Shown: positions 49,037 to 60,945 of the stretch, piece after piece
Layout of the letters: the number at the start of each line of letters is the position of its first letter
How positions within the stretch are numbered: position 1 is the stretch's first letter
Notes under the pieces: generated by a model
Told to the model about the DNA's origin: nothing
Seen by the model: only the letters and a program-made list of their open reading frames with translations
The model's database searches: none
Translations under genes and position numbers: made by a program
Source of the DNA: Mammaliicoccus sp. Marseille-Q6498
GTDB taxonomy: Bacteria; Bacillota; Bacilli; Staphylococcales; Staphylococcaceae
Assembly (NCBI RefSeq): GCF_946151045.1
Contig: NZ_OX267714.1
Span: 124,001 to 188,000 of the forward strand
Direction: 5' to 3'
Length of the DNA stretch: 64,000 bases

Positions 49037-49079
49037 TAAGTTTTATTCATTCTAAATGAACATGTATAGAACTAAGTAC

Positions 49080-49134
49080 AACGATGGACAAACCTGAAAA
49101 TCATAAGATTTTAATCGGGTTTGTCCATTGTTTT
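49080..49134 (+). terminator. Terminator after efp
   Basis: TGGACAAACC (49085-49094) pairs with GGTTTGTCCA (49118-49127), with further pairing inside (AAAATC / GATTTT) and a T-run. It belongs to the same arm family as 35355-35407. Confidence 0.85.
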
Positions 49135-49225
49135 GCCAAAACTCAGTAAATAAAGTAAAATCAAATTTTTTATATTGCTAAACAATATTAATACAATATC
49201 ATTTATAAATAAAAACGAAAATCTC

Positions 49226-49254
49226 TTGAATTGGTATGACCACTAAAGTAAAAT
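49226..49254 (+). promoter_or_regulatory. Promoter of accBC
   Basis: TTGAAT (49226-49231), 17-bp spacer, TAAAAT (49249-49254), about 43 bp before the accB start. A further TATAAT at 49263 lacks a well-placed -35. Confidence 0.5.
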
Positions 49255-49296
49255 GTATGAAGTATAATGAATTTGAATTTAAAAGGAGTTTTTCAA

Positions 49297-56292: not shown

Positions 56293-56337
56293 ATACGTTT
56301 AATATAAGAATATATAAATGATAAACATCTTAAATTT

Positions 56338-56380
56338 GGACAAACTTGAAGAGCGAAAGCTTTTTCCTCAAGTTTGTCTA
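56338..56380 (+). terminator. Terminator after dxs
   Basis: GACAAACTTGA (56339-56349) pairs with TCAAGTTTGTC (56368-56378), followed by a T-rich but interrupted tail. It belongs to the GGACAAAC arm family also seen at 35355 and 49085. Confidence 0.7.
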
Positions 56381-56463
56381 TATTTATGGCTAGAAAATGT
56401 ATTATATTATTTTTATATTTATAGAATGTAGCGCTTACATTACTATTTTTACAAATTTTATGC

Positions 56464-56488
56464 TATTATTAATGTATAAATATTCATT
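56464..56488 (+). promoter_or_regulatory. Extended -10 promoter and ARG box of argR
   Basis: TGCTATTAT gives an extended -10 (hexamer 56464-56469). Directly after it, AATGTATAAATATTCATT (56471-56488) matches the ARG box WNTGAATWWWWATTCANW with one mismatch. A repressor bound here would block transcription start, suggesting argR autoregulation. Confidence 0.65.
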
Positions 56489-56504
56489 AGTTGAGGTGTA
56501 TGAC

Positions 56505-56957
56505 ATGGCAAATAAAACTATGCGTCAAATTAAGATAAGAGAAATTATTTCTAACGAACAAATAGAAACACAAGAAGAATTAGTTAGACGTTTAAATGAG
56601 CATGATTTGAATATCACGCAAGCTACAATTTCACGTGATATAAAGGAATTACAATTAATTAAAGTTCCAGCTCCTTCTGGTCAATACATTTATAGTTTAC
56701 CAAGAGATAGAAAATATCATCCCATTGATAAACTCGGTAGGTATTTAATGGATTCATTTGTAAAAATTGATGGAACTGATAATTTATTAGTTTTAAAGAC
56801 TTTACCGGGGAATGCACAATCTATAGGTGCAATTATTGACCAAATAGATTGGAAAGAAGTATTAGGTACAATTTGTGGTGATGATACATGTTTAATTATA
56901 TGTAAAGATAAAGAATCTGGAGAAGTCATCACAGATAGAATTTTCAATATGCTTTAA
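56505..56957 (+). CDS. argR: Arginine repressor ArgR/AhrC
   Basis: 150 residues from ATG 56505 behind GAGGTG; a long in-frame extension back to 56397 overlaps the promoter and is not used. The N-terminal winged helix ends in [19 protein letters not shown]. The C-terminal hexamerisation and arginine-binding domain has [12 protein letters not shown] and [15 protein letters not shown]. It represses arginine biosynthesis and activates catabolism. It precedes recN as in Bacillus, but the tlyA-type gene that usually separates dxs and argR is missing. Confidence 0.96.
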
Positions 56958-56974
56958 AGGAGATTTAATAAACT

Positions 56975-58645
56975 ATGTTACAAGCACTTACAATTAAACA
57001 ATTCGCTATAATTGAATCATTAGAAATAAATTTTTCAGATGGATTAACTGTGTTAAGTGGTGAAACGGGAGCAGGTAAATCAATCATCATAGACGCTATT
57101 GGTCAGTTGGTAGGTGCTAGAGCATCACAAAGCTTTGTTAGACATGGTGAGCAAAAAGCAACAATCGAAGGCGTATTTGATATTGATAATGTACCAAACG
57201 TAAACGAAATTTTACGGGAATTAGATATAGATTTTGATGAAGATTTTCTTTTCGTTAAAAGAGAAATCTTTGCATCAGGTAAAAGTTTATGTAAATTAAA
57301 TAATCAAAATGTTACATTATCTGATTTAAAACTTGTGATGCAAGAATTACTGGATATTCATGGTCAGCATGAAACGCAAGTATTATTAAAGCCTAAATAT
57401 CATCTTACGTTATTAGACAATTATGCAGACGGTAAATATCAAAAGGAATTTGAAAATTATCAATCAGCATTTCAATCTTACCGAACTAAAAAACAAGAAC
57501 TTGAAAAGTTAGAATCTCAAGATCAAGCTTTATTACAAAGATTAGATTTGATAAAATTCCAACGAGATGAATTACAAGATGCAGATTTAAAAGAGGATGA
57601 ATTAGACTTTTTAAATCAAGAAATTAAAAAACTTCAAAATCACGAGAAAATCAATGAAAGTCTGAATAAAGCTCACCTATTATTAAGTAGTGAAGAAAAT
57701 ATTACAGATAAAATATATGAACTGAATCAAGAAATACAACACATTAATGACATAATACCAGACAAATATGCTTCTTTTAGCGAAGAATTAGATCAGATGT
57801 ATTATACTTTGGAAGATTATAAACATGAATTATATAATGAATTAACTTCTAACGATTTTGACGAGTCATTATTAAATGAATATGAATCAAGATTAAACGT
57901 TTTAACAGACTTAAATAGAAAATATGGTAAAAGTATTCCAGAACTGATTAAATATAGAGATAAAATTGATGACGAAATTTATAAAATAGAAAACTATGAA
58001 CAAAGTACATCTCAACTTAGAGAAGAAATTCAAGATTTATATCAGAAAGTAATGGATTACGGGAAACAACTATCTAGCAAAAGAAGAAAAGTTGCATTAA
58101 AACTAAGAGATAAATTGGTTGAAGAAGTTCAGAATTTGCACATGAAAGATGCGAATATAGAAATAGCATTTACTAAAACGCCGCCAAACAAATCAGGTTT
58201 AGAAGAAATTGAATTTCTAATTAGCCCAAATAAAGGAGAACCACTGAAGAGTTTGAATAAAATAGCTTCTGGTGGTGAACTTTCAAGAATTATGCTTTCA
58301 CTTAAAAGTATATTCGTATCATCTAGAGGGCAAACTGCTATTTTGTTTGATGAAGTCGATACAGGTGTATCAGGACGTGTTGCTCAAAAAATGGCAGAAA
58401 AAATGTATCAAATATCACAATCTCTTCAAGTCATATGTATTTCTCATTTGCCACAAGTGGCAGCAATAAGCGATAATCATTTATATATTACTAAAGAAAC
58501 AGTTAACGATCGTACAATTACATCTATTAAACAACTAGATGGAGAAGATAAAATTGATGAGATTGCTAGAATGATTTCTGGTGTTGAAGTTACTGAATTA
58601 ACTAGACAACATGCTAAAGAAATGATTGTCCAGAATAAAAAATAA
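56975..58645 (+). CDS. recN: DNA repair protein RecN
   Basis: 556 residues. An SMC-like protein with Walker A SGETGAGKSIIIDAI near the N-terminus, DIHGQHETQ (Q-loop region), and a long coiled coil (about 150-370). The C-terminal signature is ASGGELSRIMLSLK with Walker B AILFDEVDTGVSG. It acts early at double-strand breaks. Ribosome site AAAGGAGA. The next gene is the Spo0A-like regulator with a 24-bp gap; Bacillus has spoIVB between them. Confidence 0.97.
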   Translation: MLQALTIKQFAIIESLEINFSDGLTVLSGETGAGKSIIIDAIGQLVGARASQSFVRHGEQKATIEGVFDIDNVPNVNEILRELDIDFDEDFLFVKREIFASGKSLCKLNNQNVTLSDLKLVMQELLDIHGQHETQVLLKPKYHLTLLDNYADGKYQKEFENYQSAFQSYRTKKQELEKLESQDQALLQRLDLIKFQRDELQDADLKEDELDFLNQEIKKLQNHEKINESLNKAHLLLSSEENITDKIYELNQEIQHINDIIPDKYASFSEELDQMYYTLEDYKHELYNELTSNDFDESLLNEYESRLNVLTDLNRKYGKSIPELIKYRDKIDDEIYKIENYEQSTSQLREEIQDLYQKVMDYGKQLSSKRRKVALKLRDKLVEEVQNLHMKDANIEIAFTKTPPNKSGLEEIEFLISPNKGEPLKSLNKIASGGELSRIMLSLKSIFVSSRGQTAILFDEVDTGVSGRVAQKMAEKMYQISQSLQVICISHLPQVAAISDNHLYITKETVNDRTITSIKQLDGEDKIDEIARMISGVEVTELTRQHAKEMIVQNKK

Positions 58646-58669
58646 AATGATTTGATAGGGTGTTTAGTA

Positions 58670-59383
58670 ATGGTTATTAAAATCGCAATAATTGAAGATT
58701 CGAAAGCGTACGTCAGCGAAATGGCAGAGTATTTAAAAACACATGATATAGAAATCGTTAATATAGGATACAATGGTAAAGAAGCTCTAGAAATATTAAA
58801 CGGAGAAGCTTTCGATGTTCTTTTATTAGATTTAATTTTGCCTCATATTGATGGAATGACTTTATTAAAACAATATATTAAACCTAATAAAAGCTACAAA
58901 GTCATTTGTATGAGTGCTTTTGTTAGTGATAGTGTATTGAAAGAATCAGTCGCTTTAGGAGTAGACTATTTCCTAATTAAACCAGTTGAATTTGATGTTT
59001 TATTAAATACTATATATCGTGTATTAGAAACAGGTGAATCTAATATTGCAGATGTTGATGCAATGGATTTACTTTTAGAAAAGATTGGCTTTTCATATAA
59101 CTTGAACGGTTATAAATACATTAAATACGGTGTACATTTATTGTTACAACACTCACGTAACATGCAAATTACAAAAGAACTATATCCACTTATTTCAGAA
59201 CACTTTAATGTACAACCTAACAATGTAGAAAGATCTATAAGACACGCTATAAAATTAGCTTGGGATAAAGACTTAAAAACATACTGGTACAATAAAGAAA
59301 AAGCATACGTTCGTCCAACAAACGGAGAACTGATGATGCATTTATATCAAGTGAATAAAAATATACAAAACAAAGAAAGCTAA
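58670..59383 (+). CDS. spo0A: Spo0A-like response regulator
   Basis: 237 residues from ATG 58670 behind TAGGGTG. The receiver domain is complete: acidic pair E9/D10, phospho-acceptor D54 in LLLDLILPHIDG, S82 and K104 in LIKP. After a short linker (about 119-130), the C-terminal effector domain has the Spo0A hallmark NNVERSIRHAIKLAW (recognition helix, residues 184-198) and a closing RPTNGELM. Bacillus Spo0A is about 30 residues longer, mostly in the linker. Position after recN is the spo0A locus, but spoIVB is absent. In spore formers it is the master switch for sporulation and biofilm; here its targets and kinase are unknown. The last codons lie within the repeat element. Confidence 0.9.
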   Translation: MVIKIAIIEDSKAYVSEMAEYLKTHDIEIVNIGYNGKEALEILNGEAFDVLLLDLILPHIDGMTLLKQYIKPNKSYKVICMSAFVSDSVLKESVALGVDYFLIKPVEFDVLLNTIYRVLETGESNIADVDAMDLLLEKIGFSYNLNGYKYIKYGVHLLLQHSRNMQITKELYPLISEHFNVQPNNVERSIRHAIKLAWDKDLKTYWYNKEKAYVRPTNGELMMHLYQVNKNIQNKES

Positions 59384-59669
59384 CAAATCACGATTTGTTA
59401 GCACAGACTGTCAACAAAGCCACTTAATGTGAATCTGTTGGCAGTTTTTTGCGCTAACTAGCTTGTTTTCAAACTCTTGCTAGTTACAGATTCTAACTAG
59501 CTTGTTTTATATTTCTTGCTAGTTAGACTGTAAAAACCGATTAAAAACGAGACGCCTGAGGGAATAGTACAAGTCGAAGACTACAGGCTGAGACTGTACC
59601 CTAGGCAAGCGAGTTTTTAATCGGTTAAGTTTATCTACAAAGAAAGCTAACAAATCACGATTTGTTAGC
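59370..59669. repeat. Composite intergenic repeat element, copy 3, flanked by 33-nt direct repeats
   Basis: The 33-nt sequence at 59370-59402 (covering the last codons of the spo0A-like gene and part of its terminator) is repeated exactly at 59637-59669. Between them lie: a left module with a stem ACTGTCAAC / GTTGGCAGT and T-run (59407-59450), two hairpins with CTAACTAGC / GCTAGTTA arms (59453-59526), and the 92-bp core (59535-59626). The same order of modules occurs at 13776-14216. Confidence 0.87.
59535..59626. repeat. Structured core of the dispersed repeat, copy 3
   Basis: 92 bp, almost identical to 14073-14164, with the same AACCGATTAAAAA / TTTTTAATCGGTT outer stem and invariant centre. 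Confidence 0.9.
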
Positions 59670-59677
59670 TTTCTTCT
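59641..59677. terminator. Terminator between the spo0A-like and DUF2627 genes
   Basis: AGAAAGCTAACAAATC pairs with GATTTGTTAGCTTTCT around ACG. This is the complete hairpin; the upstream copy at 59374-59402 lacks the last part of the right arm. It overlaps the 3' end of the DUF2627 gene. Confidence 0.85.
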
Positions 59678-59933
59678 TTTCATTATTCTTATGTTTATTA
59701 TTCTTCAAAAAATATTCTTGTGCTCTTTTATTTTTCTTTTCACGATGTAATATATAACCACCAATAAAAATAATGCCGAAAACAAAAAATATGAATCCTA
59801 GTAAAAATTGTAGCCAAATAAAATGTAATGGTGCGAAGAGTACACCGAATACTGCGTCTCTCATCCATTTGATTCCTAAGCCAGCTAATATTCCAGGGAT
59901 AACTAAAATAAGCAATGCAATGTATTTTTGCAT
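59655..59933 (-). CDS. DUF2627 family membrane protein (YqzF-like)
   Basis: 92 residues. Two transmembrane segments (about 4-21 and 38-62) precede a highly basic, Asn/Lys-rich C-terminal tail. The GIKWMRDAVFG motif is typical of DUF2627 proteins, which lie between spo0A and the bkd genes in Bacillus as here. Function unknown. The stop lies within the terminator arm. Confidence 0.85.
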   Translation of the reverse strand: MQKYIALLILVIPGILAGLGIKWMRDAVFGVLFAPLHFIWLQFLLGFIFFVFGIIFIGGYILHREKKNKRAQEYFLKNNKHKNNEKKKANKS

Positions 59934-60054
59934 AAGTTTAAAACTCCTATTGATTAATTATTTTAATTATATATGAGTTAGTGAAAGAAAGTAAACATTG
60001 AAAATATGGAATATTTATCATAATTTTATTATGATAAAGCTAGGAGGGGTAAAA

Positions 60055-60945
60055 ATGCTATTTAAAGATATGATAAATAAAGGCCAAAATATTAATGCTA
60101 CCATTGCAGTTTGCAAATCTAATGATGAAGGGGTAATTAAATCGATCATTAAAGGTATCAAAAATACTAAAGCAAATTTTATTTTATTTGATGAAGAACC
60201 TCAAGACGAATTGATTAGATCATTTAATTTAAGTCATGAAGAATTTAAAAGAATACAAATTATACAAACTGAAGATAGAGAACATACTGTGTCAGAATGT
60301 GTAAAAGCTGTTCATGATGGAAAAGCTGACCTAATTATGAAAGGCTTAATGTCTACTTCGACAATATTGAAAGAAGTATTAAAAGATAAATATAATTTAA
60401 AAATGAATCGTAGGATGAGTCATATTGCGCTCTTTAACATTCCTGAATATCATAAAATGTTAACTATATCGGATGTCGCTATGAATATAGCACCTGATAA
60501 AGATGCAAAAATAGACATTACGAATAATTTGATTGAAAATTTACAAAAGATAGGTATACAAAATCCTAAAATAGCTGTCTTATCTGCGATTGAAGATGTT
60601 AATCCAAAAATGCAATCATCCGTCGATGCTAAAGCAGTCGCAGATTATTTTAAAAATAAAGCAATAGAAGCAGAAGTTGAAGGTCCACTAGCTTTTGATG
60701 CTGCAATTAATAAAAGAGCTTCTATTATCAAAAATATAGATTCAAATATTTCGGGTAATATTGATGGTGTCGTTGTTCCACAAATAGAAAGTGGTAATAT
60801 ATTATACAAATCACTAGTGCATCTATCAAATGCAGATGTGGCTTCTGTAATTATTGGTGCAAAAATACCAATAATTTTAACATCTCGATCCGATTCTTCT
60901 AAAGATAAATTTCATTCAATTTGCTGTGCGTTAACGCTAGTTTAG
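60055..60945 (+). CDS. ptb: Phosphate butyryl/branched-chain acyltransferase
   Basis: 296 residues from ATG 60055 behind AGGAGGGG; an in-frame upstream ATG lies at 59998. The fold shared with phosphotransacetylase is seen in ADLIMKGLMSTSTILKEVLK, PEYHKMLTISDVAMN and VEGPLAFDAAI. It makes acyl phosphate from branched acyl-CoA (isobutyryl-, isovaleryl-). With buk it produces ATP and free acid. It starts the bkd cluster, but a promoter with cre site lies between it and bcd. No bkdR activator gene is present. Confidence 0.93.
   Translation: MLFKDMINKGQNINATIAVCKSNDEGVIKSIIKGIKNTKANFILFDEEPQDELIRSFNLSHEEFKRIQIIQTEDREHTVSECVKAVHDGKADLIMKGLMSTSTILKEVLKDKYNLKMNRRMSHIALFNIPEYHKMLTISDVAMNIAPDKDAKIDITNNLIENLQKIGIQNPKIAVLSAIEDVNPKMQSSVDAKAVADYFKNKAIEAEVEGPLAFDAAINKRASIIKNIDSNISGNIDGVVVPQIESGNILYKSLVHLSNADVASVIIGAKIPIILTSRSDSSKDKFHSICCALTLV

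Follow-up and report, generated by a model that had tools for sequence, protein, structure and literature searches.

The phosphorelay of Bacillus subtilis is built from four kinds of component, the kinases KinA-E, Spo0F, Spo0B and Spo0A, and its spo0A gene is autoregulated. Spo0A is commonly regarded as the sporulation switch. In Bacillus, Spo0A also runs biofilm formation, competence and replication control, as passages of PMC3485338 describe. Clostridia, according to parts of PMC3533761, are without Spo0F and Spo0B orthologues and phosphorylate Spo0A directly. Among them, C. difficile sporulates, and passages of PMC3485338 report that its Spo0A likewise conserves the DNA-contacting residues and recognizes a target core of TGTCGAA.

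Two described systems combine Spo0A with an absence of sporulation. Within the family Staphylococcaceae, the non-sporulating Macrococcus caseolyticus has been reported to carry Spo0A (PMC3533761, 2012; PMC5325327, 2017; both in part), which answers the question, left by an earlier note on this DNA, of whether such a gene had been described. Besides Spo0A, the consulted parts of PMC3533761 name only Spo0M, SpoVB, SpoVG and Jag and do not mention relay partners. In another family, the asporogenous Exiguobacterium sibiricum encodes spo0A, kinA, kinB, spo0B and a Spo0F homologue (parts of PMC2615787, 2008) and has thus likewise retained a phosphorelay without the downstream sporulation operons. 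Related surveys are silent on the subject: PMC3734008 counts PAS/PDC proteins in Staphylococcus and, in the parts consulted, connects the loss of these proteins with motility, sporulation and adaptation to the host, with the term Spo0 absent; a word search of PMC6136694 returns no mention of staphylococci; and neither Spo0 nor phosphorelay occurs in a genus-wide genomic study of Macrococcus (PMC10400458) or a Macrococcus review (PMC13304753). No published description of a relay in Mammaliicoccus or Macrococcus was found among the matches listed. Spo0A in M. caseolyticus and the phosphorelay of asporogenous Exiguobacterium are thus already known; what appears new is a probable phosphorelay kept by these non-sporulating cocci, with unusually clean evidence for its retention and joint loss.

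Here we describe a spo0A gene of Mammaliicoccus sp. Marseille-Q6498 within a window of 64,000 nucleotides, the whole stretch of DNA analysed, together with its probable relay partners elsewhere on the genome. The same four kinds of component as in B. subtilis are present. As in other Bacilli, the neighbourhoods of spo0B and spo0A and the active-site and recognition-helix residues are kept. Unlike B. subtilis, this lineage has a single evident orphan kinase, of KinD type; lacks SpoIVA, spoIVB and a promoter gap before spo0A; shows no excess of 0A boxes over chance expectation next to the relay genes; and has a Spo0A with a shorter linker and a shorter loop behind the recognition helix.

Mammaliicoccus encodes a divergent Spo0A orthologue under purifying selection

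The spo0A product (Table 1) matches the Pfam domain Spo0A_C at 75 bits against a cut-off of 25. Its top NCBIfam model by far is TIGR02875, the Spo0A equivalog, at 149.4 bits (runner-up 60.4), below that model's cut-off of 200. By domain and place the protein is an orthologue of Spo0A, as the earlier note had proposed, and it is not filed as a sporulation equivalog.

Table 1. Features around spo0A and at the presumed efp-accB junction, in window coordinates
Feature	Position	Strand	Description
efp-accB gap (flanking gene names presumed)	49037..49266	.	230 nt; too short for spoIIIA operon
argR/ahrC-type arginine repressor (presumed)	56505..56957	+	likely first gene of argR-recN-spo0A unit; start codon chosen by eye
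recN	56975..58645	+	directly upstream of spo0A
recN-spo0A gap	58646..58669	+	24 nt; no intergenic promoter room
spo0A	58670..59383	+	237 aa: receiver (~3-120), short linker, Spo0A_C DNA-binding domain (~135-225)
Recognition-helix segment NNVERSIRHAIKLAW	59219..59263	+	residues 184-198
Terminator-like hairpin, T-rich tail	59479..59501	+	downstream of spo0A

The receiver residues that the note had listed as intact (E9, D10, D54, S82 and K104) are all present and are invariant across four Mammaliicoccus sequences, and D10, D54 and K104 are found in all 23 Staphylococcaceae sequences compared. In the segment NNVERSIRHAIKLAW, which we take to be the DNA-contacting helix, E187, R188, I190 and R191 are kept in 23 of 23 sequences of the family alignment and H192 in 22. 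How Spo0A contacts the bases of the 0A box is described in passages of PMC3485338.

Outside these sites the family has diverged. A set of 89 positions is near-invariant in the Spo0A proteins of 30 other Bacilli; of these, 31 are conserved in 21 or more of the 23 Staphylococcaceae sequences, a gap that is overstated because the comparison set consists of the 30 best scorers among matches in 207 genomes and is a strict yardstick. Losses include many positions of the first effector helices and the FG of the loop that follows the recognition helix, which is shorter in the Staphylococcaceae alignment. One idea is that a shortened sigma-A contact loop could be a sign of Spo0A acting as a repressor only. 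In a structure model the effector half is of modest confidence (mean pLDDT 74.9) and the linker falls below 50; fold comparison covered the receiver alone.

Within Mammaliicoccus, the median dN/dS of Spo0A is 0.084 (28 pairs, 27 with finite dS), and the gene is under purifying selection. Its reading frame is open in 23 of 24 genomes; in the 24th (G005) it ends at the contig end, and this sequence was left out of the alignment and the tree. In the tree, built without the divergent Spo0As of the groups f19, g72, g99 and G197, the Staphylococcaceae sequences group together with full support on a single long branch, separate from the 30 other Bacilli.

spo0A is probably cotranscribed with argR and recN

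The gap between recN and spo0A measures 2-29 nt in all 23 testable genomes, this one included, which bears out the placement of spo0A directly behind recN that had been noted earlier. Judging from this spacing, argR, recN and spo0A probably form one transcription unit. Terminator-like sites number 5 in 56300-60100 (0.8 expected in shuffles). A promoter-like site lies inside recN at 58448-58477 (10 of 12 positions), where spo0A may possibly have a promoter of its own; such sites number 12 in total, vs 23.3 in shuffles.

SOS control via recN was considered as a candidate and set aside: GAACNNNNGTTC is found 0 times in the window (0.45 expected), and the relaxed Cheo box occurs at chance level (11 matches vs 9.2 expected) and lends no support to SOS control. 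Two pairs of 33-nt direct repeats lie behind spo0A. One pair (59370-59402 and 59637-59669) is identical and contains a palindrome, resembling terminator-like hairpins; the second occupies 59454-59486 and 59493-59525.

Sporulation genes are missing

A search for SpoIVA returned no match in any of 108 Staphylococcaceae genomes and detected the B. subtilis control; two of the 14 control genomes, those of B. subtilis and Thermotoga maritima, matched, one of them over the cut-off. This agrees with the remark in the earlier note that cocci of this family are not known to sporulate, and on these grounds we rejected sporulation in disguise. A SpoIVB-type motif is found upstream of spo0A in 28 of the 30 other Bacilli loci, which were chosen as the best-scoring Spo0A matches, and none is found in the window; spoIVB had rightly been reported missing. 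B. subtilis keeps its spoIIIAA-AH operon between efp and accB, and the interval between the genes that we take to be efp and accB here has no room for it (Table 1). Going by this gene content (SpoIVA, spoIVB, spoIIIA), the Spo0A described here would not be an initiator of sporulation. In keeping with this, M. caseolyticus is without sigE, sigF, sigG, sigK, spoIIE and other genes (parts of PMC3533761), and Macrococcus is characterized as non-sporulating in the consulted parts of PMC13304753.

Candidate relay partners are encoded at distant loci

The earlier note had proposed a search of the genome for relay homologues, and this search identified a receiver at the Spo0F locus, a Spo0B-type protein and a KinD-type kinase. 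The genome encodes 14 response regulators and has 17 HATPase_c matches. By coordinates, a HATPase match lies no more than about 2.2 kb from 12 of the 14 regulators; Spo0A and a lone receiver of 122 aa are the two that lack a nearby kinase. Five HATPase matches are unpaired. One is a 498-aa histidine kinase of KinD type, and the other four are, by their size, presumably gyrase/topoisomerase subunits, MutL and RsbW.

The lone receiver has the DDE, D and K residues of the active site. In this genome its gene is situated between pyrG/ywjG-type genes and fbaA (names that we assign by assumption). B. subtilis spo0F occupies the same place in a pyrG/ywjG-fbaA order, a neighbourhood that the two organisms thus presumably share. 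By sequence, Spo0F is not the closest PDB match: 3a0u, which we take to be a Thermotoga response regulator, ranks first at 69 bits and Spo0F fourth at 57, and no Spo0F-specific model appears among the Pfam matches listed or the best 25 of 91 NCBIfam matches. We use the name Spo0F because of place and co-distribution. Median dN/dS is 0.178 across 21 pairs from seven of the eight Mammaliicoccus genomes, the frame-broken one having been dropped. In that genome, M. stepanovicii (G021), the frame of spo0F is interrupted at about codon 10 (L106, around 1480-1510), the only such case among the 24; the relay may be broken and the gene a pseudogene in this one species, or the break may be a draft error.

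The Spo0B-type protein (185 aa) matches a single family, Pfam SPOB_a, at 45.7 bits (cut-off 28.1), and carries an RHD motif with a candidate phosphoacceptor histidine and no kinase ATPase. In PDB searches up to an E value of 1 it matches only Spo0B chains, weakly (E 0.007), with RHD aligned. The gene order rplU-ysxB-rpmA-spo0B-obg (the last name presumed), inspected in three Staphylococcaceae loci (L065, L060 and L174), matches two other Bacilli loci that encode SPOB_a proteins. The protein is fast-changing, with a median dN/dS of 0.301 (28 Mammaliicoccus pairs); sequences were read in 17 of 24 genomes, the other seven being without a locus.

The kinase matches the NCBIfam KinD model NF053867 over residues 2-489 of 498 with 228 bits and misses the cut-off of 775; it is KinD-type and is not filed as a KinD equivalog. 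A profile was built from 18 orthologues out of 24; it matches 4jgo, a solved structure of the KinD sensor (E 1.7e-16), and in its catalytic part the best PDB match is ZraS (7.8e-49), followed by sporulation kinase B (2.4e-44). Median dN/dS is 0.127 (28 Mammaliicoccus pairs). At 23 of 24 loci (L129-L152) the kinase gene and a gene for a TrkH/KtrB-type potassium transporter converge, the G005 locus ending earlier, and in 21 of 24 a divergent gene lies upstream, metallophosphoesterase-like in the Mammaliicoccus loci; the TrkH and metallophosphoesterase names are our assumption.

Four genes share one distribution across Staphylococcaceae

Spo0A_C is found in 24 of 108 Staphylococcaceae genomes, comprising 24 of 24 outside the genus labelled g5 and 0 of 84 within it. 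From its 84 species we infer that g5 is Staphylococcus, the genus of S. aureus, which the earlier note had reported to lack the gene; one g5 regulator is close to ArlR chains (S. aureus). The carriers are all eight Mammaliicoccus genomes (M. stepanovicii, M. lentus and M. sciuri among them), nine of g2, six of g3 and the single genome of g4. These last three genera would include Macrococcus, with M. caseolyticus among the g2/g3 genomes. Across the whole order the domain occurs in 24 of 157 genomes, with 0 of 49 in the other families.

The lone receiver, the full-length kinase and the short Spo0B-type protein each show this distribution too, being present in all of these 24 genomes and absent from all 84 of g5. 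The receiver is found in 24 of 24 at E values of at most 6.2e-28. In g5, 11 of 84 genomes reach an E of 1e-15, all through regulators of 221-255 aa with E values of at least 1.2e-17. The kinase aligns in all 24 from query residue 1 or 2 to at least 488 (E at most 1.2e-60); no g5 genome does better than 3.7e-28, with above-threshold kinase catalytic parts in 84 genomes and alignments that start at query residue 165 at the earliest among the matches listed. Short SPOB_a proteins, in frames of 133-221 aa, are present in 24 of 24 non-g5 genomes, vs SPOB_a matches in 19 g5 genomes that all fall in frames of 437-568 aa except for one 27-aa frame.

Because the genes lie at distant loci, this exact co-distribution is what one functional unit would be expected to show. 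It may reflect a single joint loss in one clade, since the 84 negative genomes form one genus. The reading offered in the earlier note is thus upheld as to orthology and selection, and its picture of a lone regulator in one species is not, as the candidate relay partners are kept in 24 of 24 genomes.

Outside the family, the groups f19, f6 (g72 and g99) and f27 (G197) have intermediate Spo0A_C matches, with E values of 1e-20 to 1e-39 vs 1e-42 to 1e-46 in most rows, and may be additional non-sporulating lineages whose Spo0A is relaxed. The f19 matches (about 1e-30 to 1e-33, vs 1e-17 to 1e-23 in Staphylococcaceae) may come from Exiguobacterium.

No enrichment or conservation of 0A boxes in the regions tested

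In the window, TTTGTCRAA is absent (4.0 expected) and TGTCGAA occurs 5 times vs 6.6 expected. Within 300 nt upstream, 0A boxes are present at 0 of 24 spo0A genes (3.3 expected; the G005 stretch counted here is 79 nt), 5 of 23 spo0F genes (4.6), 0 of 17 spo0B genes (3.4) and 1 of 24 kinase genes (3.1). Across four Mammaliicoccus genomes, TTTGTCGAA occurs 29, 35, 24 and 32 times, vs 35, 50, 36 and 53 for the reversed pattern, and is the rarer in all four. Such sites might be avoided because Spo0A is at work, which could account for this scarcity and for the absence of TTTGTCRAA.

A comparison of the surroundings of all 120 TTTGTCGAA matches placed 31 in 12 position-conserved clusters and left 89 single. 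Two clusters are common to all four genomes, one inside obg and one upstream of a membrane protein gene that we presume to be of the TerC family. We rejected the latter as a 0A box because it sits in a manganese riboswitch (RF00080, E 7.4e-11 and 44.1 bits, slightly short of the gathering threshold of 45; scored in L220 only). The riboswitch site maps to L220 7258-7395 (-), near 840.3 kb of C3 in this genome, and includes a perfect TTTGTCGAA that mimics a 0A box; its sequence is conserved in L247, L262 and L281.

Footprinting covered 151 orthologous intergenic regions from 380-400 kb of the four genomes. TGTCGAA is conserved in all four at one site only, overlapping the start codon of a gene that we take to be mreC, and by our reading it is coding and not a regulatory box. 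Conserved TTGTCAA and TGTCAAA matches mostly look like -35 boxes, and no conserved promoter 0A box was found in the sampled regions of the four genomes. Either the targets are few or degenerate, or the specificity has moved; many 0A sites in Bacillus are degenerate (passages of PMC3485338). The search for 0A boxes, itself proposed in the earlier note, supports none of the roles in competence, biofilm or stress suggested there.

Discussion

We consider it likely that spo0A in these cocci is vertically inherited and stands last in a retained phosphorelay of Bacillus type whose output is not sporulation. Co-distribution, orphan status and homology suggest that the four proteins form one relay controlling transcription. 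The kinase, located in the membrane and equipped with an extracytoplasmic sensor of KinD type, would autophosphorylate and pass the phosphate to the lone receiver Spo0F, from which it would move to the histidine in the RHD motif of Spo0B and on to D54 of Spo0A. Phosphorylated Spo0A would then dimerise and bind DNA via a recognition helix of the usual type. Because non-spore-forming relatives keep the presumed relay and Staphylococcus lost all four genes, the relay probably controls a non-spore output, and since the spore programme is gone, the regulated genes would be vegetative or stationary-phase ones. With no intergenic promoter and probable cotranscription with argR and recN, control of Spo0A would be exerted by phosphorylation rather than by autoregulatory feedback via 0A boxes. 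Against a relay stands the failure of Spo0A and the kinase to reach their NCBIfam cut-offs (149 of 200 and 228 of 775). Further points against it are the possible single loss behind the co-distribution, the lack of autoregulatory 0A boxes above chance, the ranking of 3a0u before Spo0F and of ZraS before any sporulation kinase in the PDB matches, the interrupted spo0F of M. stepanovicii and the fast change of Spo0B.

We lean, by a little, towards a more specific history, in which the relay, with a single KinD-like sensor as its input, was kept and converted to a general vegetative or stationary-phase regulator in animal-associated cocci, with spo0A autoregulation lost and the target set perhaps changed or much smaller, and later disappeared as a whole when Staphylococcus arose.

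It is unlikely that the components instead went separate ways, with some other kinase phosphorylating Spo0A and the lone receiver, Spo0B-like protein and orphan kinase working in other pathways. Such an arrangement would fit the direct phosphorylation of Spo0A in clostridia (parts of PMC3533761) and a Spo0F candidate that is not closest to Spo0F by sequence. It is opposed by the identical distribution of all four genes in 108 genomes and by the lack, in this genome, of any other unpaired regulator or other evident unpaired kinase. To our knowledge, moreover, Spo0B has no use besides Spo0F-to-Spo0A transfer.

Still less probable is that spo0A and the relay are functionless relics of sporulation loss. 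The missing sporulation genes, the lack of conserved 0A boxes in the regions and genomes tested and the broken spo0F frame of one species are what a relic might leave. The selection test (median dN/dS of 0.084) disfavours this account, as do spo0A frames open in 23 of 24 genomes with the 24th cut by a contig end, active-site aspartates, lysine and recognition helix kept across four genera, and the retention of four genes together in 24 of 24.

We give little credence to the idea that spo0A or the relay was acquired horizontally from a Bacillus-like donor once sporulation had been lost. The absence of Spo0A_C from all 49 genomes of the order's other families could be read in this way, against which three of the genes lie at conventional, mutually distant loci and, in a tree without the other divergent Spo0As, those of Staphylococcaceae share a single long branch with full support, separate from 30 other Bacilli. 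Hidden sporulation under untried conditions, to which an initiation relay that looks complete might point, is effectively refuted by the search for SpoIVA (0 of 108, B. subtilis control detected), the lack of spoIVB before spo0A and of room for spoIIIA between efp and accB, the missing sigE, sigF, sigG, sigK and spoIIE of M. caseolyticus (parts of PMC3533761) and the non-sporulating description of Macrococcus (parts of PMC13304753).

A phosphorelay apparently retained in Mammaliicoccus and its relatives marks a clear regulatory difference between Staphylococcus, which has entirely lost an apparent four-step relay, and its nearest relatives, which carry it. A lineage with the relay and without the spore programme separates the other roles of Spo0A from sporulation, and, if our reading is true, these cocci would offer a naturally spore-free setting in which to study the roles of Spo0A besides sporulation.
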